Origin: a virus
Length of the DNA: 26,042 bases
Direction: 5' to 3' (one strand)
Virus record (IMG/VR): IMGVR_UViG_3300048015_000345
Location: 1-26,042 of that record
Of this stretch, positions 1,154 to 26,042 are shown one piece after another. Positions within the stretch are counted from its first letter, which is position 1. Every line of letters starts with the position of its first letter. The notes beneath the pieces are model-generated. The model was not told the origin of the DNA. It saw only the letters and a list, made by a program, of their open reading frames with translations, and ran no database searches. The position numbers were made by a program, and so were the translations under genes.

Positions 1154-2665
1154 TCAACGAATCGAACCCCTTTTGCCTCCACACCCGCACCCCTTGCGGG
1201 CCTTCTCAGGCACTTTGACCGGTGCCTTTGTGTCAACATTCAAATGAGCAAACACGGCCCCCCAAACGGCCTCGGGGTTGGTCCATGCACTTTCGGGCAA
1301 TTCAATCATCGTGCCTTTGTTGGCCCCCTTAATCAATTCTTTGTAGCTCCACCAATGATAATGGTTCGGTGGTGAGAACATGATTGTTGGCGTGTCCATC
1401 ATTGCGGCCAAATGCGAAACACCCGTATCACCGCCCAAATAAATTCGGCACTTGCCGAGCAAATCCACAGTGCCTGCGGTCGACCCGTCCGGGTGATCCC
1501 ATGCTCTTGCATCTGCTTCCACGTCAACCGATGTTTCGGGCCGTCCAACCAACCCAACTGTTAAACCGGCAGCACGCAAGCTCTGCACGACCTCAGTCCA
1601 GTGTGTCCAATTTTTTTCTTTCCCGTGTTCCCGATATCGAGGGCATACGGCAACGTCGATGTTGGGCAACACCGATTTCACTGAGGGCATGAATTTCGTT
1701 TCAAGGTGACCCCATGCCCAGGGGTTTGGGTAGTCGCCTTTTAGAATGGCATGATGAGGAAATCTATCGGCAAGAATTGCACGGGTTCTAATGTCATCAC
1801 CGCTACCATCTTCGCACCGGTGACTATCCGGTATTCCCTCAGGCCAATCATAAAAGAACTCAGTTGCATGGGGGTACAAACATTCTTCACCACGGCGGCA
1901 ACACACAACAATGTTTTGGGCATTTAGTTCATGCACCCAACGAACGTGCCGACAAATCATCCAACCGAATTCACCATAGTACGGCATCACAACGGCGTTG
2001 GTTAAATTCCGAACGGGGTGATAAATCGCAGGTTCCTCAGGGTCAACCGGACGTGAATCGGAACGGTAAGTCATTGACCCGCCGCCCGGCAACACCGCAA
2101 TTGGAAAACCGGCCCAATGAATCATCGTGCCGAGGCGAAGCTCGCAATAGGCCCCGCACATAGGCAACTTGCTAACCTCAACCAATGCCCGACGTGAGAG
2201 CATTAACCCCGACATTGGCGAAACGGCAACCGCATGAGGAACCCAATCATTGGGCAGGTTGTTCAACTCATGCCAATACACCCAATCATCACGACCCCTC
2301 AACACCGTATCGGCGGCGGCAGCATCGGCATTCCACACCGACCGATAGAACGAACGAACCCCAACCGAGGCATAGGTGTCATATTCAAGAACGATATATC
2401 GTTGCGCTTCAACACGGGCCGGTGAGTTGAACCATTCCAGAATGACCAAATCCAAATTGGCCCAATTGGAACCACTTGCAACCCGCCGGACCTCAACCGC
2501 ATTAGGCAAGGGGTTAGCCCGATATGAGGCACACGCAGGGCCTCCGTCGTCGCACCATAGGGGAATGATTGGCACGTCGGGATTGTGCCGTTGAATTGAT
2601 TCCAAATTCTGGCAGGTGACCTCATCATTTTTATGGTGCGTAAACAGAATGACACAATCCAACAT
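1154..2665 (-). CDS. Two-domain glycosyltransferase (GT-A-like plus GT9-like)
   Basis: The 503-residue product appears to join two sugar-transfer domains. The N-terminal half (about 1-215) looks like a GT-A nucleotide-sugar fold: it opens with CVILFTHHKNDEVTCQNLESI and has an acidic metal-site-like motif VLEYDTY at 92-98. The C-terminal half (about 220-470) resembles GT-B heptosyltransferase/ADP-heptose-type (GT9) enzymes, with the nucleotide-binding signature GGDTGVSHLAAMMDTPT at 411-427. The protein ends in a short basic Cys/Gly tail (KGCGCGGKR). The ATG overlaps the stop of the GT25 gene (TAATG), so the two are translationally coupled in the tail operon. The family assignment of the N-terminal half is tentative. 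The substrate could be the Ser-rich tail protein or host surface glycans; the sequence does not say which. Confidence 0.75.
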   Translation of the reverse strand: MLDCVILFTHHKNDEVTCQNLESIQRHNPDVPIIPLWCDDGGPACASYRANPLPNAVEVRRVASGSNWANLDLVILEWFNSPARVEAQRYIVLEYDTYASVGVRSFYRSVWNADAAAADTVLRGRDDWVYWHELNNLPNDWVPHAVAVSPMSGLMLSRRALVEVSKLPMCGAYCELRLGTMIHWAGFPIAVLPGGGSMTYRSDSRPVDPEEPAIYHPVRNLTNAVVMPYYGEFGWMICRHVRWVHELNAQNIVVCCRRGEECLYPHATEFFYDWPEGIPDSHRCEDGSGDDIRTRAILADRFPHHAILKGDYPNPWAWGHLETKFMPSVKSVLPNIDVAVCPRYREHGKEKNWTHWTEVVQSLRAAGLTVGLVGRPETSVDVEADARAWDHPDGSTAGTVDLLGKCRIYLGGDTGVSHLAAMMDTPTIMFSPPNHYHWWSYKELIKGANKGTMIELPESAWTNPEAVWGAVFAHLNVDTKAPVKVPEKARKGCGCGGKRGSIR

Positions 2666-3624
2666 TAGACCCCCAACGCCATTTTAATTTCAACAGGCAA
2701 CCGTTCCATTGCCTCATCTATAGAGGCGGCACACACTGAAAAAACCGGGTCCAATGTGTGCGGTTGCAAGGCCATTGCGAGAGCATGAGGGTGAACGATT
2801 GCAACCACCGAACCGGCGGCAAGTGCATCGACCTGGGACTTCTCGATTTGCCCCCTTAGTTTTCCGATATGCAAATCATCGGGCCTTAGAACGGTCAATA
2901 GTTTTTGCCTTGCCATTTCCTCAACAACGTCGTCGGGTGCGTGCAAAATTAAGATTGGCCTTCTATCACCGCCCATGATCCAATGTTCTGACCCCTTATC
3001 TTTGCCCTCGATATCCGACCAACTCGCCCGTTGTCCGGCAATTTGAATGCGAGGCCCATACACTTTATGTGCCTTGCATATGGCACTAATCAAATGATCG
3101 GCATGGCCTGAGGTCGAAACAAAATGCCGGTAGAGGGTCTTACAGAAATCGAGTGTTGCAATGTAGAAGTGTGTGCGGTTCATTCCCGGCAACTTTAGAA
3201 CCCTATCGTTCATCTTTTCCGGCACCCCATCCCAAGGTTGGTAACCGGGCAACAATAGTTCCCAATCATCGGGAACCGATGATAGGAACCGTTTCATTTC
3301 ACCGACAAAGTCACGACCCCGAAGAACCTCAAAATCATCCTCCAACATGATGATGCCGGGTTGGTTGTTTTCAATTGCGGCACCGAGGCATTCTTCGTGT
3401 GACCTCTTGCACCCATAGGCCCCGGACATACCGCCGCCCAAATGCTCAGGGAGCGGCAAGGCCCAACCGTTGATTGCCTGAAATGTTGTAGGCCATTGAA
3501 ATAGTTCGGACCAACTGCAGGCCCTCAATTGTGCGTGAGTATCGGCCAACCGGTCGGTTCTACTCTTTAGGTTGATGAGAAACACGGGCCATGTTTTGAG
3601 GTCCGCAATTGCCCGGTCATTCAT
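2665..3624 (-). CDS. GT25-family glycosyltransferase
   Basis: The 319-residue product shows the landmarks of glycosyltransferase family 25 (LPS-type sugar transferases): VFLINLKSRTDR at 14-25 matching the family's opening strand, GCKRSH at 71-76, and the metal-binding MLEDDFE at 93-99. The rest is typical in size for the family. It has a good ribosome-binding site, GGAGG, 4 nt before the ATG. The start lies 8 nt inside the end of the Ser-rich tail protein gene, and its stop overlaps the next glycosyltransferase (TAATG). In bacteria this family adds galactose or glucose to lipooligosaccharide, and other members modify proteins. Its position directly after a very Ser-rich structural protein makes tail-protein O-glycosylation a reasonable inference. 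Confidence 0.85.
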   Translation of the reverse strand: MNDRAIADLKTWPVFLINLKSRTDRLADTHAQLRACSWSELFQWPTTFQAINGWALPLPEHLGGGMSGAYGCKRSHEECLGAAIENNQPGIIMLEDDFEVLRGRDFVGEMKRFLSSVPDDWELLLPGYQPWDGVPEKMNDRVLKLPGMNRTHFYIATLDFCKTLYRHFVSTSGHADHLISAICKAHKVYGPRIQIAGQRASWSDIEGKDKGSEHWIMGGDRRPILILHAPDDVVEEMARQKLLTVLRPDDLHIGKLRGQIEKSQVDALAAGSVVAIVHPHALAMALQPHTLDPVFSVCAASIDEAMERLPVEIKMALGV

Positions 3625-5434
3625 TGGCCTCCGTTATTCCCGGCACGAATCGGGGCCGTGCAACCTCAACCGGCGGGCCTTGCCATTCCAGTTTCTTACC
3701 GCTTCCCGATGAGCCTGAGGAATGCGACGAACCTGAAGGGCAGGCACAATCACTTGGCGTGTCGGTGCGTGCTGGCGGCAACGGCGGTTGAGTTGTTGAC
3801 GGCCCCTGCGTGTACCAATAGGCACAGGTCAAAGAACCATCATTACCCGTAGACGTGCCAAACAGGCCCCATGATCCGACCGGCATCGTTTGACCGTTGC
3901 CGTTGATTGGAACCGTTGAACCAGCGGCCCCGAGGTTTTCCAACGACAACCACGCACCGGCGGCACAACTGTATTCTTGCAAGGTCACCCAATATTGCGG
4001 TGTCGTCGATGAACCCGAGGAACCCGACGACGTTGAGCCGGACGATACAGAACCGGACAACGACGAACCCGAACCACTTGCACTGCCAGTTGAACCCGAT
4101 GAGCCTGAGGAACCCGACGATTGAGACGATTGAGACGATCCACCGCCGCCACCGGTTGACGACGAACCGCAGCAACATGGAATAGATGATTGTGAGGATG
4201 AACCATCGGAAAAACTTACGGTGAGGGTGCATCCCGAAATTGAAACATTGGTAACATAGGTGCCGGTGCCGCCACCACCTGAGCCGGAACCCGACGACGT
4301 AGACGTAGACGACGTTGATGAACCTGAGGAGGCACCACTTGAACCCGACGACGGGCAATTGTTGGGTGTATACGTTAGCCCCGCTGATGGTGCCGCCGGG
4401 AATGCCCCGCAGGGTACCGTTTGCTCAGGCCCGTTGCATGTTGCACCGGAAATATAGTAATAGGCATTCTGCCCCGTGCCGGTCCAAACGCCAGTTTGAA
4501 CGCTACCGGTTGGCATACAGTTGACACCGTCACGAATCACCGGCCCCCAGGTCTTAGTCTGACAGTTGTAGGTTGCCGAAAAAGCGAAATAACAAGTGAA
4601 TGCCCCGCCTGAGGAACCGGAACCCGATGAACTAGACGAACCGCAATTAGGTGTCGTGGTTGGTAATGTCGTTGGTTCCGCCGGGAAGTTGCCGCAACCG
4701 TGCGTCTGCTCAGGGCCGGGGCAGGGGTTGCCTTGAATGTACCAATATGCTGAGGTGCTATTGGGGTTAGCTTGAACCCAGGTGTTGAATTGCAATGCCC
4801 CGATTGGCATACAATTCACGCCAGATTTTTGAGGCGGTCCCCATACTTTTGTTATGCAATTATAAATCGACACATAGGCAAACACGCAGGCATAGTTGCC
4901 CGATGAACTAGACAACGACGACGTGCCTGAGCCGGGGCAACAGGTGCCTGCCCCAGGTGCCGTTGAAGAGGTCGCATTTTCATAGGCAAAGGAATAAACG
5001 GGCGTGCGGTCATTCCCCGGTGTGACCTCGGGGAAATCCATCCTCATCCACACAATCGGTGACCCCTGAACCGGCAATACAAATAATGACGACGATATTG
5101 ATTGTGAATCCCCTTGAATTCCCGAGGCCGTGTTGCTGGCCTCAACCGCATTTAATGCGTAGGTCGTCGCACCGTTGCAACAATCACCCGTGCGGCCATT
5201 CTCTTTATTCACCCACTCATCATTAGAATCACGCACGACCTCAACCCAACCATATTTCCAACGGTTCGGGGCAAAGGTGCAATAGCATTCAAGCCGTGAC
5301 CAAAACCCCCGTTCGTTATAGGATCGTTTCAACGAACGATTGCCGATGTTGTTCACCGGTTGGTTGTTCACGGACTCCACGGCGGCAACGATTTTTTTCG
5401 CTGCCCCCAATGTGAATGATGCGGTTTGTGCCAT
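3617..5434 (-). CDS. Ser/Gly/Cys-rich modular tail protein
   Basis: The 605-residue product has an N-terminal domain (about 1-155) and then three related Cys- and Trp/Tyr-containing modules at about 181-255, 279-349 and 480-555. They are separated by low-complexity linkers made almost only of Ser, Gly and Thr (about 160-178, 262-278, 360-393 and 412-478). Modules one and two share clear landmarks: YNCxTKxWGP, GVNCMPxG, AYWYI or YYYI, then GPEQTxxCGxFPA. A further cysteine cluster (PCCCG) lies near 420. The start overlaps the upstream stop (TAATG). Position after the tape measure suggests a tail-tip or receptor-binding protein displayed outside the virion. The paired cysteines suggest disulfides, and the Ser/Thr linkers are plausible O-glycosylation substrates for the two glycosyltransferases that follow. 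I recognise no named family. Confidence 0.7.
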   Translation of the reverse strand: MAQTASFTLGAAKKIVAAVESVNNQPVNNIGNRSLKRSYNERGFWSRLECYCTFAPNRWKYGWVEVVRDSNDEWVNKENGRTGDCCNGATTYALNAVEASNTASGIQGDSQSISSSLFVLPVQGSPIVWMRMDFPEVTPGNDRTPVYSFAYENATSSTAPGAGTCCPGSGTSSLSSSSGNYACVFAYVSIYNCITKVWGPPQKSGVNCMPIGALQFNTWVQANPNSTSAYWYIQGNPCPGPEQTHGCGNFPAEPTTLPTTTPNCGSSSSSGSGSSGGAFTCYFAFSATYNCQTKTWGPVIRDGVNCMPTGSVQTGVWTGTGQNAYYYISGATCNGPEQTVPCGAFPAAPSAGLTYTPNNCPSSGSSGASSGSSTSSTSTSSGSGSGGGGTGTYVTNVSISGCTLTVSFSDGSSSQSSIPCCCGSSSTGGGGGSSQSSQSSGSSGSSGSTGSASGSGSSLSGSVSSGSTSSGSSGSSTTPQYWVTLQEYSCAAGAWLSLENLGAAGSTVPINGNGQTMPVGSWGLFGTSTGNDGSLTCAYWYTQGPSTTQPPLPPARTDTPSDCACPSGSSHSSGSSGSGKKLEWQGPPVEVARPRFVPGITEANE

Positions 5435-15394: not shown

Positions 15395-17380
15395 TCAAAC
15401 TACCGTGATAGTGCCTCCCCAATCTTTCGACGGTTCAATTGCGGATCGTTTGGCCTCAGTAAGTGCCGTCACCAATGCGGCAATGCCGTCAATCTTTGCC
15501 CCCCTACGGCCCTTGTAACCATCACCGCCCTTAGTCCCTCTATACCCCGGTTTCACAGGCCAATATCCGCCATGTTTACCGGGTTCTACTTCCACCACTT
15601 CTGCGTGCGCCCTCAACACGGCGTTGGCCTCTATGGTGATACTCCCCTCAGTTAATCTTCTATCCGCCTCAACACACCCAGGCGATACTGAGAACCCCTG
15701 CGCCACCGGCACACACGTCAAACCCTTTTGTTCCAACTGATAAATGACGGCATCGGCCTTATATCGGTCATATCCAACCGTGGTGATTGGGTGTCGTTGG
15801 TGAAGGTCAATGACCCATTGGGCAATACGAGCCTGCACCGCCGGTGTGATCGTCGTTTCATCCAACAACGTGATTGCACCCAATGCCGCCCATTCGTAAT
15901 ACTGGTGACCCTCAGATTTTTGGTACTTGTCCGCCGTTGCCCGTGGCAACCAAAAATGGGATTGAATGTAAACCCGGTCACTTGACCAATAGACGGCAAC
16001 GGCGCAGCACAGGTCATCACCCTGAGATAGATCGAGGGCAACGGTGAGGGTCAACCCTTTGACGGACTCAGGATCAACCGGCCCGGTGTTGGCGTCCCAT
16101 TTCTTTAAGTCAAGCCATTTCGTTGTTGCTTGAACGTGTTGCCCCAAATATAGCTGCCGCCATTCTCTCTCCTGCTCAGGTAAACCCTTCCGGCGTTCCC
16201 ATTCCTTTTGCAAGGCATCTTCCGTGATTGTTACTCCAATCATCGGGTTGGCCTTACGCCATGTTGCAGGATCGTCTATAGGATCGTCCGGGGCAGCTTG
16301 CCAAAGGATCGGGTACAAACCGGGGTCAACTCGCTTGCCGCTGAGAACATCTTCAGCCTCGGCTTGCATGATGCCGTAAAGACCGTCACGGGTTGTGCCG
16401 GTGTTGGTCGCAATCCATGTTAGGGGTTCGGGCCGTTTGATAGTTCTACTTTGTAGGTCGTTGAATGCCTCGGCATTTTTGTTTTGGTGACATTCTTCAA
16501 ATATGATTACACCGGCAGCGGCACCGGCCTTCGGACCTTTGCCCGAAACAATGTCCCAAATGGTGCCGGTCAATTTGTTTTTGATCGAATATTGGTTGAT
16601 CTTAGTTCGATTGAACAATGCCGGTGAGGCTCGAATCATTTCCTTTGCCGGTTCAAAAGTCACCCGGTTTGATTGGGCATAGTCGGAGGCAAGGCAAAAA
16701 ATTTGGTTGCCCGGTTCTGAGCCTAAATAAAATTCATATAAAGCCGCAATCACAAGGATCGGGCTTTTGCCGCAACCGATTGAACCGTTCCAGAATACAC
16801 GTTTTATGCGACGTAATTTTGTCTCACGATGTTTGTAGCCCCACACATCCCTGAGGATTCGTTTCTGTATCTCCGTTAATTCAAAAGGCTGCCCCTTCTT
16901 TCGCCCCCGTGTGAACTTTATATATTTGGCGACAAATTTGATCGGACGTTCGGCGGCATCGGCATCGTAGTAATAGGTTTCATCCTCGGTGAGGTCCAAC
17001 ATTCCCGAGACATAAGGCCGCTGGGGTTCGGGTTCGGTTTCCTGAGCCGTTAAGATGTTGTGACAACTCACACACACCGGCATGAGGTTCGATTGATCGG
17101 TCTTTTCGTATTCGTCGCATTGCGCAAGGGGTTTTATATGATGCACATGCACGGCCCAGGTGTTTTGGCACCGACGGCACGTTGGCGAAATCGAAAGTGC
17201 CTCGGCACGGGCTAATTGCCATGCCTTAGAATTGTAAAATGCCTTTGCCTCAGGGTTCCTTAGATGTTGATCGTAAAAGCTATTCTTGCGAGCGGTGACC
17301 TGGGGTTGATGTTTTGAACACCAACCGGATTTAGTGAGTAATTCGGGGCAACCTGAGTGACGGCAGTGAAAACTTGGCAC
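15395..17380 (-). CDS. HNH endonuclease-large terminase fusion protein
   Basis: The 661-residue product begins with a full phage-type HNH protein: a CxxxxC...CxxH zinc knuckle (C6, C11, C21, H24) followed by the ββα-metal HNH unit with C68/C71, HVHHIKP at 78-84, N98 and CVSCHN at 103-108. After an acidic linker (about 112-140) the large terminase continues in the same frame: Walker A GSIGCGKS (199-206), Walker B VIIFEE (291-296), a nuclease Asp in ALDLSQGDD (448-456), GYDRYKADAV (536-545) and the C-terminal AKIDGIAALVTAL motif (628-640). In HK97 these are two adjacent genes whose products cooperate in cos cleavage. The GTG start lies 4 nt from a TACATA box. The gene is alone between a 196-bp gap and the portal. 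Confidence 0.92.
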   Translation of the reverse strand: MPSFHCRHSGCPELLTKSGWCSKHQPQVTARKNSFYDQHLRNPEAKAFYNSKAWQLARAEALSISPTCRRCQNTWAVHVHHIKPLAQCDEYEKTDQSNLMPVCVSCHNILTAQETEPEPQRPYVSGMLDLTEDETYYYDADAAERPIKFVAKYIKFTRGRKKGQPFELTEIQKRILRDVWGYKHRETKLRRIKRVFWNGSIGCGKSPILVIAALYEFYLGSEPGNQIFCLASDYAQSNRVTFEPAKEMIRASPALFNRTKINQYSIKNKLTGTIWDIVSGKGPKAGAAAGVIIFEECHQNKNAEAFNDLQSRTIKRPEPLTWIATNTGTTRDGLYGIMQAEAEDVLSGKRVDPGLYPILWQAAPDDPIDDPATWRKANPMIGVTITEDALQKEWERRKGLPEQEREWRQLYLGQHVQATTKWLDLKKWDANTGPVDPESVKGLTLTVALDLSQGDDLCCAVAVYWSSDRVYIQSHFWLPRATADKYQKSEGHQYYEWAALGAITLLDETTITPAVQARIAQWVIDLHQRHPITTVGYDRYKADAVIYQLEQKGLTCVPVAQGFSVSPGCVEADRRLTEGSITIEANAVLRAHAEVVEVEPGKHGGYWPVKPGYRGTKGGDGYKGRRGAKIDGIAALVTALTEAKRSAIEPSKDWGGTITVV

Positions 17381-18947: not shown

Positions 18948-20708
18948 TCAATTCAGAATGTCACTATTCACACCCGCAACGACAGTTCCTGCCGTTCCAC
19001 TCACACTATTTGAACCCGCAATGACCGTTTGTTGATCGTAGAATTTGCCTTCTTGCAATTTGACGTGTGACACCAAATCGGCGGCAAGTAATGCGTGTCC
19101 CTCAGTGTTTGGATGGACCTGCAACCCTGCGGCGGTCGTGCTGTATTGCGTTGTCGTCGATGTTAGGAAACCATAGTTTCGAGACGACAAATCGTAATAG
19201 CTGGTTTTATCATCGCCAGAAAAGGCCGTTTTGTACGCATTGAAACCGTTTAGAATTGCCGTGTTTACTGTGGTCACATTGTCAGAACACAAAATCGTGT
19301 TGTCACTTGGCGATGCCCAAACGATGAGCGTATTTGCACCAACTTTATTGCGAATAGTCGTGAGCATCGACGTTACATCATTCGCTAATGTCGTTGCACT
19401 TGCACCACCGTCATTAGTGCCATGACAAATCAAAACATAGTCGGGTGTGCCGAAATTCCTGGCATTCACCGAATCATACATCGTGAAAGTGTTGATAAAT
19501 GATGGTGCAGGATTTGGTGACGATGCCGATTTCTGTACGCCTTGCCCTGAGTATGCAACGATTCCAGTTTCGGCGTTTAATCCGTGTCCAACCAATGCCG
19601 CAAAACTCAACTGACAAGCATTACCGCCAAGTGACGTGCAATTGTAACCTCGGGTGATAGAGTCACCGAAAATCAATGCCTTCTTAGGCCGAATGGTTGC
19701 GTTGCCAGTTGGTGCGACGAATCCTGCACCTGCACCGTAATCGGTTTGAATGCCGCTGATCCTCACACCGTCAAAACTAGTTCCAATATTCCAAGTGTTA
19801 TTCTCGGCATTTGGTTCAAAACGAATTTCGGCATTGTGACCGAACACCGGCGCACCACCGGTGATGTAATACATTCCTGAGGTCGTCAATTGCGTCTTTA
19901 CCCAAGGGCCATTATCCAAGCTCGACAGAATCCACGGATAAGACGAATCACCAATCGGTGAAACATCGACATTGATTCCAATTGTCGTGCCGGTTGTCCC
20001 TACTTTGATGCCGTTGCCCGTGTGCATCCATTCAAGACTTGTACCTGGGTTGATGTAGTGACCCGGTGTGAGTCCGAGGCCGATGCTATCTGGCGGCAAC
20101 ACGTTCGTTGCGGCACCCTGATAAACGAAAAGGTTCTTAATTTGGATTCCGGCGGTATCGGTGGAATTGCTTCCGCCGAGCGGACCCGATTCAATCGTGA
20201 CGAAATTACCGAACGTCAAACCGCTGGGATATGACATCGATGCCTGCGGTGAACCGTTGATGGTGTATGAAATCGTTGATGATGAGACGAAGAATTCAAA
20301 ATGGTATATCGTTGGTGCGCTCGAATTGCCCGAGGTCAAGTTCAAACTCTGCGTGTGCAAATTTCCAACCGTATCCATTCTGTAAAGAACGATTGACCCG
20401 TTTTCAGTGTATCGCAATTCAACACCGCCAGTATAAGGATTGCCAGCGGTCGCAGAACCAATCACGATTCCCATATATCCGCCAAGTTGTGACGGCACTT
20501 GTATATCGAAACTAACGACCGTACCTGCCGACGATGTTGTTGCCGGAACGGCAATATATGCCTGTGTTCCTGAGTTGTTTCGCAACCAACCCGAGGGCGT
20601 AATCGTGTATGCACCCTGAGTAACGGTGTAATTAGAATTATATGCGGTAAGGTTAAGATCGGCACCGGTTGCGTTGTTGAATAAGTCAGAAAAGATCAGT
20701 GATGACAT
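18948..20708 (-). CDS. Tail spike with C-terminal SGNH/GDSL hydrolase
   Basis: The 586-residue product has a beta-rich N-terminal half (about 1-200) resembling a LamG/concanavalin-type carbohydrate-binding domain, then a linker (about 200-340) and an SGNH/GDSL hydrolase domain (about 343-555). Hydrolase landmarks are IFGDSITRGYN (block I, nucleophile Ser350), GTND at 430-433 (block III) and VHPNTEGHALLA (block V, His532). The acid that usually stands three residues before the His is not there (Leu529), so activity could use another residue or be weak. Such enzymes remove acetyl or other ester groups from surface polysaccharides and serve phages as depolymerase-like spikes. It sits outside the main tail module, in the methyltransferase unit. 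Confidence 0.75.
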   Translation of the reverse strand: MSSLIFSDLFNNATGADLNLTAYNSNYTVTQGAYTITPSGWLRNNSGTQAYIAVPATTSSAGTVVSFDIQVPSQLGGYMGIVIGSATAGNPYTGGVELRYTENGSIVLYRMDTVGNLHTQSLNLTSGNSSAPTIYHFEFFVSSSTISYTINGSPQASMSYPSGLTFGNFVTIESGPLGGSNSTDTAGIQIKNLFVYQGAATNVLPPDSIGLGLTPGHYINPGTSLEWMHTGNGIKVGTTGTTIGINVDVSPIGDSSYPWILSSLDNGPWVKTQLTTSGMYYITGGAPVFGHNAEIRFEPNAENNTWNIGTSFDGVRISGIQTDYGAGAGFVAPTGNATIRPKKALIFGDSITRGYNCTSLGGNACQLSFAALVGHGLNAETGIVAYSGQGVQKSASSPNPAPSFINTFTMYDSVNARNFGTPDYVLICHGTNDGGASATTLANDVTSMLTTIRNKVGANTLIVWASPSDNTILCSDNVTTVNTAILNGFNAYKTAFSGDDKTSYYDLSSRNYGFLTSTTTQYSTTAAGLQVHPNTEGHALLAADLVSHVKLQEGKFYDQQTVIAGSNSVSGTAGTVVAGVNSDILN

Positions 20709-22488: not shown

Positions 22489-22524
22489 AAAAGCCCGGCG
22501 GTGAAGGTAAAAACACCGCCGGGC
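22487..22524 (-). terminator. Strong rho-independent terminator of the small-gene unit
   Basis: On the minus strand an 11-bp perfect stem, GCCCGGCGGTG paired with CACCGCCGGGC around a 10-nt T-rich loop, is followed by TTTTTTATTGG. It ends the transcript of the 73-codon gene and protects the plus-strand HNH gene from antisense reading. Confidence 0.92.
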
Positions 22525-22565
22525 CTAAGTTGGTTCCCACCGTCCAAGGAGGTAACAACTCCTTA

Positions 22566-22787
22566 TTATAGTGCCGCCATTCTTTTTTTTCGATCCTCAA
22601 TTGCCGCACGTTCTTTTAGTCCAGCGTCAATAGCCCGTGCTGCATCGTCACGGCGTGCGGCAAACCGTTTGACCCAGCTTCTACTTTTGCCCAAACGGTA
22701 GAGTGCGGCACGTTGGGCCGTGGTTGAGGCCGTTGCAACGGCATAGTCGGCATTCAATTCGGTGAGGTCTAGGGGTGCCGTTTCCAT
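22566..22787 (-). CDS. Small Ala/Arg-rich hypothetical protein
   Basis: The 73-residue product (starts METAPLDLTELNADYAVATAST) is helical and basic in its second half (RSWVKRFAARRDDAARAIDAGLKERAAIEDRKKRM). TACATT, a one-base variant of the box, lies 5 nt upstream and a strong terminator follows, which supports a real monocistronic unit. It directly follows the iteron region. No family is recognised. Confidence 0.55.
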   Translation of the reverse strand: METAPLDLTELNADYAVATASTTAQRAALYRLGKSRSWVKRFAARRDDAARAIDAGLKERAAIEDRKKRMAAL

Positions 22788-22792
22788 GTTTT

Positions 22793-22798
22793 AATGTA
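22793..22798 (-). promoter_or_regulatory. TACATA-like box (TACATT) before the 73-codon gene
   Basis: TACATT, then AAAAC, then the ATG at 22787. It lies between the iteron region and the gene. Confidence 0.45.
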
Positions 22799-22825
22799 GT
22801 GGTTCAAGTTTGAATTGCGTTGCAG

Positions 22826-23031
22826 ATTAATAACGGGAAGTGGCGTAAGTGGGCAAAGTGGCGTGAAATCTGAACATTTCCCCCGCTCACGTTTGCCGTT
22901 CCCCTTATTAATAAATTACTTTCCATCAACAGATGAAGATTTCAGGGTTGCCACTATGCCCACTTGATGAGCGGGGGAAATGTTCAGATTTCACGCCACT
23001 TTGCCCACTTATGCCACTTCTCGTTATTAAT
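22826..23031. repeat. 64-bp inverted repeat with AAGTGG iterons, candidate replication origin
   Basis: The arms 22826-22889 and 22968-23031 are inverted copies that agree at 62 of 64 positions, with a 78-bp spacer. Each arm carries three AAGTGG units in 9-bp phase, and the spacer holds a further, partly diverged copy of the same segment plus an AT-rich stretch (TTATTAATAAATTA). It lies just downstream of the PrimPol-helicase genes and contains no gene. The arrangement of phased iterons plus AT-rich DNA beside replication genes is that of a phage or plasmid replication origin; a regulatory cruciform is the alternative. Confidence 0.7.
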
Positions 23032-23063
23032 TATGCCTTTTTGACCCCGTTAAGGGCATAAAT

Positions 23064-23128
23064 GGAAGTGGGATAGAAACGGGTCTTGCCCACTTCTATC
23101 CCACTTATGCCACTTCTATCCCACTTCC
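23064..23128. repeat. Second iteron cluster with a 15-bp inverted repeat
   Basis: GGAAGTGGGATAGAA at 23064-23078 is perfectly inverted at 23114-23128. Within the cluster CCACTTCTATCCCACTT is directly repeated (23090-23106 and 23110-23126). CCACTT units start at 23090, 23101, 23110 and 23121, close to one helical turn apart. TTATTAAT follows at 23131. With the 64-bp repeat this makes about twelve AAGTGG/CCACTT units. Confidence 0.75.
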
Positions 23129-23133
23129 GATTA

Positions 23134-24723
23134 TTAATTCGGGTAGTTCGGAACACACGATTTCAACTCCGTGAAAAATTCAGATACCGGGATTTCCGTC
23201 CCCGGTATGGTTGTGAGTTTTGGGCAGTTGCGGATTGCTTCTATCCGGATCATTTTCCGACCGTCCAGTGTTCTTTCGGTGATATCCCATTTCCACGCTT
23301 TGCGTAAAGCGGGTGCGAACCGTCTGAGTTGTCCAGCGGTTGCCCGTGCCGTCTGAGGCAGTTTTTTCAATTTCTCATGGTCCCCATTACATGCACCGGT
23401 TAATAGATGGTGTAAATTACCCGCCGTTAATTCCAACGTACCCTTGGCATCGGCAAGTTCAACCCTGAGTAATTCGAGCAGCAAGCTATCGTCCAATGAC
23501 TCAGTTTGATTGGTTTCCTCAACCGCCCGGTGAACGTTGTAGAACGTGAGGTCACCCATACAGGCCGTGACCCAACGAATGGAATCGGCCATCCGGCCCA
23601 AGGTCGGCAATTCGACCTCATCGGACCCGAGGCCCCTAACCATTAGGTCAAGTAACGCACCAAACATGCGGGGTAATTCCTCATCGAATGCCGCAAATAG
23701 AACCTTTTCCTCCATCCGGTGTTCGATTACCGGTTGCCTCACAATGATCGACCGTGATGCCAAATCCTGGGCCGTAATGACCTCAGGAATGGAATTGCAC
23801 AATACCGGTGAACATATAGCCAACGTCATCATTTCGTCGTTGGAATATAGTTTCCGTGTTTTAATGCCGCCGCCAGTTGAGGCCCTGCATAGCACGTCGG
23901 AAAACTCACTGTCAATATAACTCACATTGTCATAGGCCAAGATATGTTCGTGTTGCGCCTGCACCCCGAGGTCATGTTCACTTTTAGGTTTGCCACTTAA
24001 TTCACCGACCAACACCGGATCGACAATGCGGCGGATGAATCGGCACACGATTGATTTGCCAGAACCCTGTTCACCGATGAGTGAGGTACAGAAATATGGG
24101 CCAAACCCTTTACACGCATCTAAGATTGCACCGGTGATGAGTGTGAACCCCTCATCGGTGCATGAACAAAATTCTTTCAACCTTTTCATTGACCCGCCAG
24201 CAACGGGCAAAGGCAATTCTTTCATTGTTGCTGAGTGCCTGAATTTTACGGGTGCCGGTGCCATTGGTAGTATTCGCCAACCCTCACGGGAAATCTCAAC
24301 AACCGACCAATCGGCCCTGCCGAGGTCGCAATAGATGCGGTCACCGAATCTAGTCCAACGGTTGGACGTGGTATATTTTGTATACTTCCTGGCATTGAAT
24401 GATAGAATTTCACAGGTCGATCTAAGTGCCTTATCATTCGCTACCATTCCAGTTGTTTCGAAATAAACACCGCTGAGATATTCACGAAAATCATGCCGTG
24501 ATATCGGTCGATTTTCAAAGTGGTCACCGACTTCGATAGTTGCCCATGCGACACCGCCCTCGGTCCAAAGTTCGGCATTCAAACCTATCTTAACCAAATC
24601 CTCGGCGGTTGTTGGTTTCTTTTTCTTACCGATTCCGTTGCTGTTGTTGTCCGGTGCCTCAACCTCAGAATACTCAATATCAATAGCTGCTGCTGCGTCC
24701 GACATATTTTCAAAATTACTCAC
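23134..24723 (-). CDS. Phage replication helicase-type ATPase
   Basis: The 529-residue product has Walker A GEQGSGKS (217-224), Walker B-like HILAYDNVS (260-268), a sensor-like CRASTGGGIKTRKLYSNDE stretch (279-297), then SPVLCNSIPEVI and the arginine-containing DLASRSIIV motif (320-328). This is the ATPase family found beside PrimPol genes in phages and plasmids, which is presumed to load or act as the replicative helicase. The N-terminal 200 residues carry no recognisable domain. It begins at a GTG that overlaps the PrimPol stop (GTGA), so the two are coupled; an ATG six codons in is an alternative. Its 3' end abuts the iteron region. Confidence 0.85.
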   Translation of the reverse strand: MSNFENMSDAAAAIDIEYSEVEAPDNNSNGIGKKKKPTTAEDLVKIGLNAELWTEGGVAWATIEVGDHFENRPISRHDFREYLSGVYFETTGMVANDKALRSTCEILSFNARKYTKYTTSNRWTRFGDRIYCDLGRADWSVVEISREGWRILPMAPAPVKFRHSATMKELPLPVAGGSMKRLKEFCSCTDEGFTLITGAILDACKGFGPYFCTSLIGEQGSGKSIVCRFIRRIVDPVLVGELSGKPKSEHDLGVQAQHEHILAYDNVSYIDSEFSDVLCRASTGGGIKTRKLYSNDEMMTLAICSPVLCNSIPEVITAQDLASRSIIVRQPVIEHRMEEKVLFAAFDEELPRMFGALLDLMVRGLGSDEVELPTLGRMADSIRWVTACMGDLTFYNVHRAVEETNQTESLDDSLLLELLRVELADAKGTLELTAGNLHHLLTGACNGDHEKLKKLPQTARATAGQLRRFAPALRKAWKWDITERTLDGRKMIRIEAIRNCPKLTTIPGTEIPVSEFFTELKSCVPNYPN

Positions 24724-25847: not shown

Positions 25848-26042
25848 TCATTTCGCTTTGTCCTTTTTCAGTTTGATACCCATAGATCGCAATTTCTTCT
25901 TCACTTCCGCAACCTCAGCGGGTGAATAACCTTTGCGGATGCCGTCACCAGTTTGCGGCACCGCAACTAACCCCAACCGTCTGAGTCTGTAATACACCGT
26001 CGTGGGTATTCCTAATTCTTTCAATAATTCAACTACAGTCAT
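25848..26042 (-). CDS. Small HTH (MerR/excisionase-like) DNA-binding protein
   Basis: The 64-residue product (starts MTVVELLKELGIPTTVYYRLRRLGL) has a MerR-like helix-turn-helix with a short wing (VPQTGDGIRKGYSPAEVAEVKKKLR, about 28-52) and a basic tail. Single-domain proteins of this kind are commonly phage regulators or excisionases. Its start codon is the last base triplet of the window, so any upstream promoter, box or integrase partner cannot be seen. It precedes the replication genes in the transcription order. Confidence 0.7.
   Translation of the reverse strand: MTVVELLKELGIPTTVYYRLRRLGLVAVPQTGDGIRKGYSPAEVAEVKKKLRSMGIKLKKDKAK

Follow-up and report, generated by a model that had tools for sequence, protein, structure and literature searches.

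A putative prophage replication origin of inverted, 9-bp-spaced iterons at the 3′ end of a helicase gene

The gene-free region at 22788-23133 of the DNA studied here is very probably a cis-acting replication origin of the PICI/P4 type that belongs to a tailed prophage. The window, by which we mean the whole stretch that was analysed, comprises 26,042 bases and is a complete virus record from IMG/VR; origin activity is inferred, without replication data. The region meets the layout tests for such an origin: it lies directly 3′ of the gene for a putative initiator helicase, and iteron triplets in opposite orientation flank the most AT-rich 40-mer of the window. An initial annotation had already read the region as an origin, and this reading is supported by the recurrence of iterons at the 3′ end of related helicase genes and by the likeness of the helicase fold to that of the SaPI5 Rep protein.

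Genes for the small and large terminase subunits, portal, prohead protease and capsid identify the element as an HK97-type tailed phage; with these genes of its own it is a phage and not a satellite, and we rejected its classification as a PICI. The left end of the window is the start of a host yifB/comM gene. Among 20 genomes tested, this fragment is nearest to Planctomycetota (59% identity), and the window is therefore probably a prophage fragment from a Planctomycetota host, as far as sequence comparison can tell. The host portion (1-666) is the N-terminal part of yifB/comM and ends at the start of the Mg-chelatase/ATPase domain; the prophage seems to have integrated inside comM. Near this end of the prophage, two neighbouring genes at 1154-3624 encode glycosyltransferase-like proteins of families 9 and 25 (the match to family 25 is weak). 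They are followed at 3617-5434 by a Ser/Gly-rich repetitive protein, perhaps tail-related, which is the second strongest repeat cluster of the window and is coding in nature. A single reading frame at 15395-17380 encodes the terminase large subunit (residues 114-650) with an HNH endonuclease domain fused in front of it (residues 5-116), and a putative virion protein at 18948-20708 carries a GDSL lipase/acylhydrolase domain (residues 346-540).

The putative origin region occupies the 346 bp between the helicase stop codon and the next gene. It contains two arms of 64 nt, the left at 22826-22889 on the plus strand and the right, its reverse complement, at 22968-23031 on the minus strand; the arms match at 62 of 64 positions and are separated by 78 nt. 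The left arm begins with a ATTAATAA box, continues with three AAGTGG iterons at 22838, 22847 and 22856 (22838-22861, plus strand) and ends in about 27 nt without iterons. The right arm holds the inverted triplet, with CCACTT at 22996, 23005 and 23014 (22996-23019, minus strand), and the spacing is 9,9 in both. The spacer at 22890-22967 is a putative melting (DNA-unwinding) element. Its 40-mer at 22905-22944, which starts with TTATTAATAAATTA, has 22.5% GC, the lowest value among the 26,003 in the window. A single minus-strand iteron at 22960-22965 lies within a partial third copy at 22950-22965. Closest to the helicase gene is a cluster at 23066-23126 with one plus-strand iteron at 23066 and minus-strand iterons at 23090, 23101, 23110 and 23121 (spacing 24, 11, 9 and 11), which includes 17-bp direct repeats (23090-23106 and 23110-23126) and falls within a second inverted repeat cluster at 23058-23134. 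The TTATTAAT/ATTAATAA box occurs at four sites (22826, 22905, 23024 and 23131). Read in the orientation of the helicase strand, a mixed cluster beside the gene is followed by a 9,9 triplet, an AT-rich spacer with one iteron and the inverted triplet (>11>9>11>24<52>9>9>36>104<9<9<, with arrowheads for orientation and numbers for spacing).

Between 22838 and 23126 there are exactly 12 copies of AAGTGG/CCACTT, and the rest of the window predicts 0.15 (Poisson P ~3e-19). The anatomy given by the initial annotation was thus borne out by our recount: the 346-bp gene-free stretch, the two 64-bp arms identical at 62 of 64 positions, the partial third copy in the spacer, the second cluster with its inverted and 17-bp direct repeats, the four boxes and the estimate of about twelve iterons. 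Its statement that the iterons are phased near the helical repeat was not, as the main period in the window is 9 bp and not 10.5 bp, with spacings of 9,9 in each triplet and 11,9,11 in the cluster. A search for exact 20-mer inverted pairs within 1 kb found no others anywhere in the window. As a single strand, 22826-23031 folds with a predicted −78.5 kcal/mol (z = −18.5); the region has no match in Rfam. A GC-skew plot, which had been suggested as a check, gave no support for an origin: the cumulative skew changes sign near 23 kb at a local maximum, not at the minimum that is expected of an origin.

The putative initiator helicase (529 amino acids; 23134-24723, minus strand) has an AAA+ core and a C-terminal winged-helix-like domain at about residues 393-497. 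We found no family for it in Pfam or PHROGs, and a search of PDB sequences with the helicase profile returned only P-loop noise from ABC transporters, so that a fold search was needed. An AlphaFold2 model built from 59 sequences (pLDDT 89.7) matched the SaPI5 primase-helicase (7OLA/7OM0) best in the PDB, with a Foldseek E value of 1.9e-9 and a Z score of 19.6 over 388 residues. The rmsd was 7.4, with domains shifted, and identity in the structural alignment was about 10%, which speaks for a common fold only. Poxvirus D5/E5, NrS-1 and SCC Cch were the next matches. In the model, the C-terminal part consists of helices, a long helix at 459-477 and a two-strand wing at 479-496, the pattern of a winged helix. 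The gene overlaps by 4 bases, at its start, with that of a PrimPol (359 amino acids; PF09250; 24720-25799, minus strand). A small protein at 25848-26042 (minus strand) runs to the contig end; it appears HTH-like from sequence only, matched no family and has no shown role in the module.

Searches of viral contigs with the single helicase and PrimPol proteins found no relatives. Using tblastn, we identified relatives of the helicase on plasmids of Methylobacterium, Methanothrix (archaeal), Chlorohelix, Stanieria and Streptomyces. In Streptomyces pFP11 and the Chlorohelix plasmid (helicases 27-37% identical), the helicase gene is followed downstream by clusters of iterons that include inverted repeats, with a small gene in between in the case of pFP11. 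A family alignment of seven helicases then retrieved 80 viral and 80 genome loci, in which iterons at the helicase 3′ end recur across bacterial genomes, plasmids and other phages. Among 73 loci with helicases less than 60% identical, 42 had their strongest repeat cluster between −500 and +800 nt of the helicase stop (9.4 expected), and 34 had their strongest inverted repeat in the same interval. The initial annotation had named absence of iteron conservation in relatives as a result that would refute it; such clusters are present at the helicase 3′ end even in distant relatives. Iteron words vary by lineage, most with a GACG core, and one locus (L135) has a AGGTGGCGA-like unit three times, close to the AAGTGGC/G unit of the window. 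The place of the array is conserved and its word is not, as would fit an origin and an initiator that evolve together. No relative more than 40% identical to the window helicase was found, and selection on the AAGTGG array itself therefore cannot be demonstrated. In many relatives (L276, L261, L259 and others), array and helicase frame overlap at the 3′ end of the latter (the last 300 nt or more), and one piece of DNA would there encode both the origin and the protein tail.

Two further observations concern single relatives. The archaeal member, Methanothrix plasmid pH6Ac (L125), differs in layout and has tandem 11-bp units (AGTTCGAGCAA) at 924-1024, upstream of its primase-helicase gene, and no iterons downstream of that gene. 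Two other loci (L165 and L166) have GGTGAAC iterons at 9-10 bp, around 1967-2236 of L165, and this word is that of the type-1 iterons of phage P4.

PrimPol is not a constant partner of the helicase. With a profile of our own making, we detected it in only 13 of 75 loci, and other relatives carry TOPRIM-type or DUF3854 domains instead. The primase is thus exchangeable between relatives, which leaves the helicase and the iterons as the core. Of the neighbouring PrimPol and helicase genes that had been offered as an origin trait, the helicase stands, but PrimPol is not a necessary neighbour. We also looked in 30 loci for co-variation between the base before the GACG core of the iterons and columns of the helicase alignment; the winged helix showed no excess (mean z −0.3), and no recognition code was therefore found.

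The spacing of the iterons is shared more widely than their sequence. For each spacing from 6 to 24, we counted the loci in which some 5-mer occurs three times at that interval in the zone from −800 to +900 nt of the helicase stop. Triplets at spacing 9 were present in 35 of 74 loci, every other spacing in 0-4, and the density of spacing-9 triplets in the zone was 15.9-fold that in the rest of the same loci. We also counted inverted pairs, defined as two copies of a 6-mer at spacing d and, no more than 450 nt away, two copies of its reverse complement, also at d: d = 9 occurred in 31 of 74 loci, d = 18 in 16 and any other value in 0-4, with about 0.009 pairs at d = 9 per equal length outside the zone. 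The binomial P values are ~1e-26 for triplets and ~1e-43 for inverted pairs; they call for caution, since the loci share ancestry and the counts were made on the very loci that had suggested the rule. A second set of 392 Planctomycetota genomes, queried with the window helicase, gave seven loci with triplets in the zone (P ~2e-4). An exact 9-bp triplet is missing from about half of the 74 loci. Nine base pairs are also three codons, a caveat for arrays that overlap the helicase frame; a coding cause is disfavoured because no such excess was seen at 6, 12, 15 or 18, and it would leave the inverted pairs unexplained. Judged from these relatives, 9 bp is the significant period and the helical repeat is not. 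The general 9-bp rule may be new, judged against open papers only.

Before the rule was known, viral contigs had been scanned for the AAGTGG triplet at 9 bp. Among the matches listed, 107 of 120 loci were set aside because their triplets fall in open reading frames of 150 codons or more, which left 13 intergenic loci, at least five of them with five or more copies within 300 nt. Four of five such copy-rich intergenic loci, again among the matches listed, lie directly 3′ of a primase-helicase gene of another Pfam family: three follow DUF5906/VapE-type helicase genes (L027, L089 and L121) and one a DUF3631 helicase gene (L107). In L027, the first of these, a very AT-rich spacer separates the two halves of the inverted pair. 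A profile of the window helicase family hit none of these loci. Another intergenic locus among those listed (L086) is probably a coding repeat at a contig end, and the three-copy intergenic loci listed had no replication gene nearby where checked.

The alternative that survives best, though we consider it unlikely, is a folded hairpin or cruciform origin as proposed for pRN1 and phage BIP-1, in which the 64-bp stem, and not the linear iterons, would be what is recognised, with priming by PrimPol in the loop. The match of the arms at 62 of 64 positions and the predicted stability of the single strand fit this model, as do the roughly 27 nt per arm that carry no iterons and yet match between the arms. 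Replication of pRN1 depends on an intact 100-nt stem-loop immediately after its PrimPol-helicase gene (PMC4234260), and the window resembles it in placement, with a 64-bp stem and a 78-nt loop downstream of PrimPol and helicase genes; the authors of the pWTY27 study also suggested a stem-loop (PMC3583192). The relatives, however, keep iteron triplets but have short arms (inverted-repeat score 58 for the window, 27 for the next best locus), and binding by Cch2 requires direct repeats, not inverted repeats (PMC7581432). Priming by PrimPol from an extruded cruciform, as the initial annotation had it, is possible but unsupported as stated, because a stem this long is found only in the window. By comparison with the relatives a cruciform may aid initiation without being required, and with arms of such unusual length a hairpin may, by analogy with pRN1, still play some part.

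In iteron plasmids, the iterons commonly serve in copy control as well. The region could accordingly be an autoregulatory operator or an incompatibility or copy-control locus, with the helicase or the HTH-like protein encoded at 25848-26042 bound to the iterons and the origin elsewhere, and P4 does have separate ori and crr sites. We regard this as improbable, more so than a hairpin origin: the region lies downstream of the operon, not upstream, the one promoter-like match near it is no more than chance would give, and the AT-rich core and inverted symmetry match origins. There is very little to be said for a MITE-like mobile element, bounded by 64-bp terminal inverted repeats, that inserted into the gap. 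It would explain long, near-identical terminal arms around 78 nt with TTATTAAT at both outer ends, but the same iterons and TTATTAAT box continue outside the element up to 23139, a 24-nt word of the arm occurs in no viral contig, and relatives of unrelated sequence have their iterons in the same place and layout. Equally remote is a transcription terminator or structured RNA of the helicase operon, for which there is a strong stem-loop directly after the stop codon, but no Rfam match, no terminator role for iterons on both strands and no more terminator-like sites in 22500-23400 than expected by chance, both of those found lying inside the helicase gene.

For the region as an iteron-based origin, we propose a mechanism that is inferred, without binding or footprint data. 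The C-terminal winged helix of the helicase would bind the AAGTGG iterons, and the inverted triplets, together with the cluster next to the gene, would guide the assembly of two hexamers face to face on the two arms. These hexamers would melt the AT-rich spacer and unwind outwards, and the adjacent PrimPol could lay the first primers for both forks. The predicted outcome is bidirectional theta replication after excision, and the long arms would mainly reflect two-fold symmetry.

Known systems share parts of this arrangement. A classical iteron plasmid origin of the RepA, RepE or TrfA kind, with direct iterons of ~17-22 bp and an initiator that is not a helicase, was rejected in view of the 9-bp, partly inverted lattice and the AAA+ helicase neighbour. 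Like the window, pRN1 and BIP-1 have a long stem-loop directly downstream of a PrimPol/SF3-helicase/winged-helix gene; they have no reported origin iterons, whereas the window has both iterons and stem. The plasmids pFP11 and pWTY27 resemble it in a PrimPol gene, a RepA and adjacent iterons with inverted repeats. In footprints, the pWTY27 RepA covers a long inverted repeat within the iterons next to the PrimPol gene, and the pFP11 RepA is reported to bind its iterons (PMC3583192). Both are circular theta plasmids with other iteron words (AGGGACGCA / GTGGGAAC), and the spacing in pFP11 is less regular. The pFP11 protein beside PrimPol is a relative of the window helicase (32% identity over 58%), but its equation with RepA is unchecked; the comparison with pWTY27 rests on layout, as homology of its RepA to the window helicase is likewise unchecked. 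P4 has its crr, annotated as needed in cis, immediately 3′ of the alpha gene, and the type-1 iterons annotated there form inverted sets with spacings of 9 and 18 bp. P4 differs from the window in its two cis sites, its GGTGAAC iteron and its alpha protein, a single primase-helicase.

The putative origin of SCCmec Cch2 is alike in word and place: a 23-bp stretch of direct repeats immediately after the helicase gene holds AAGTG three times. The C-terminal domain of Cch2 binds the direct-repeat region 3′ of its gene, and AAGTG is required (PMC7581432). We infer, with the sequence itself unchecked, that 23 bp is 5+9+9, or two 9-bp steps and a 5-bp word. Cch2 differs in its single set of three iterons, in the CCPol-MP pair as primase and in a helicase of the Primase_Cterm type.

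There is a close likeness in layout to PICIs and SaPIs (SaPIbov1, SaPI5 and EcCICFT073), with an origin 3′ of rep, two iteron sets around an AT-rich region and a similar helicase fold. SaPI Rep origins lie directly downstream of rep and are made of iterons, and are recognised by the C-terminal domain (PMC7581432). In the PICI origin, two sets of iterons flank an AT-rich region, and a rep-ori segment replicates a plasmid in E. coli (PMC6092414). The window differs in being a tailed prophage with capsid and terminase genes and a separate PF09250 PrimPol, and in its exceptionally long arms and AAGTGG iterons. The PICI authors considered their layout common to no other known bacterial replicon (PMC6092414). 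Contrary to this published view, we propose, with about even confidence for and against, that D5/SaPI-type self-loading helicases of several families share one origin code, in which inverted pairs of 9-bp-spaced iteron triplets lie beside the 3′ end of the gene; the code would hold for tailed phages, satellites, islands and plasmids alike. On this view a single winged helix of the loading hexamer would cover 9 bp, and a row of three on each side would seat a head-to-head double hexamer. It is still not understood how self-loading hexameric helicases come together as two opposed rings; the conserved geometry of the 9-bp triplets makes this directly testable, and the rule would tie phages, satellites and plasmids to one loading mechanism. 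The origins of most uncultured phages are unknown, and inverted 9-bp pairs at the 3′ end of SaPI/D5-type helicase genes would locate them from sequence alone. The loci compared here suggest that the PICI-type origin layout is far more widespread than the islands in which it was described.
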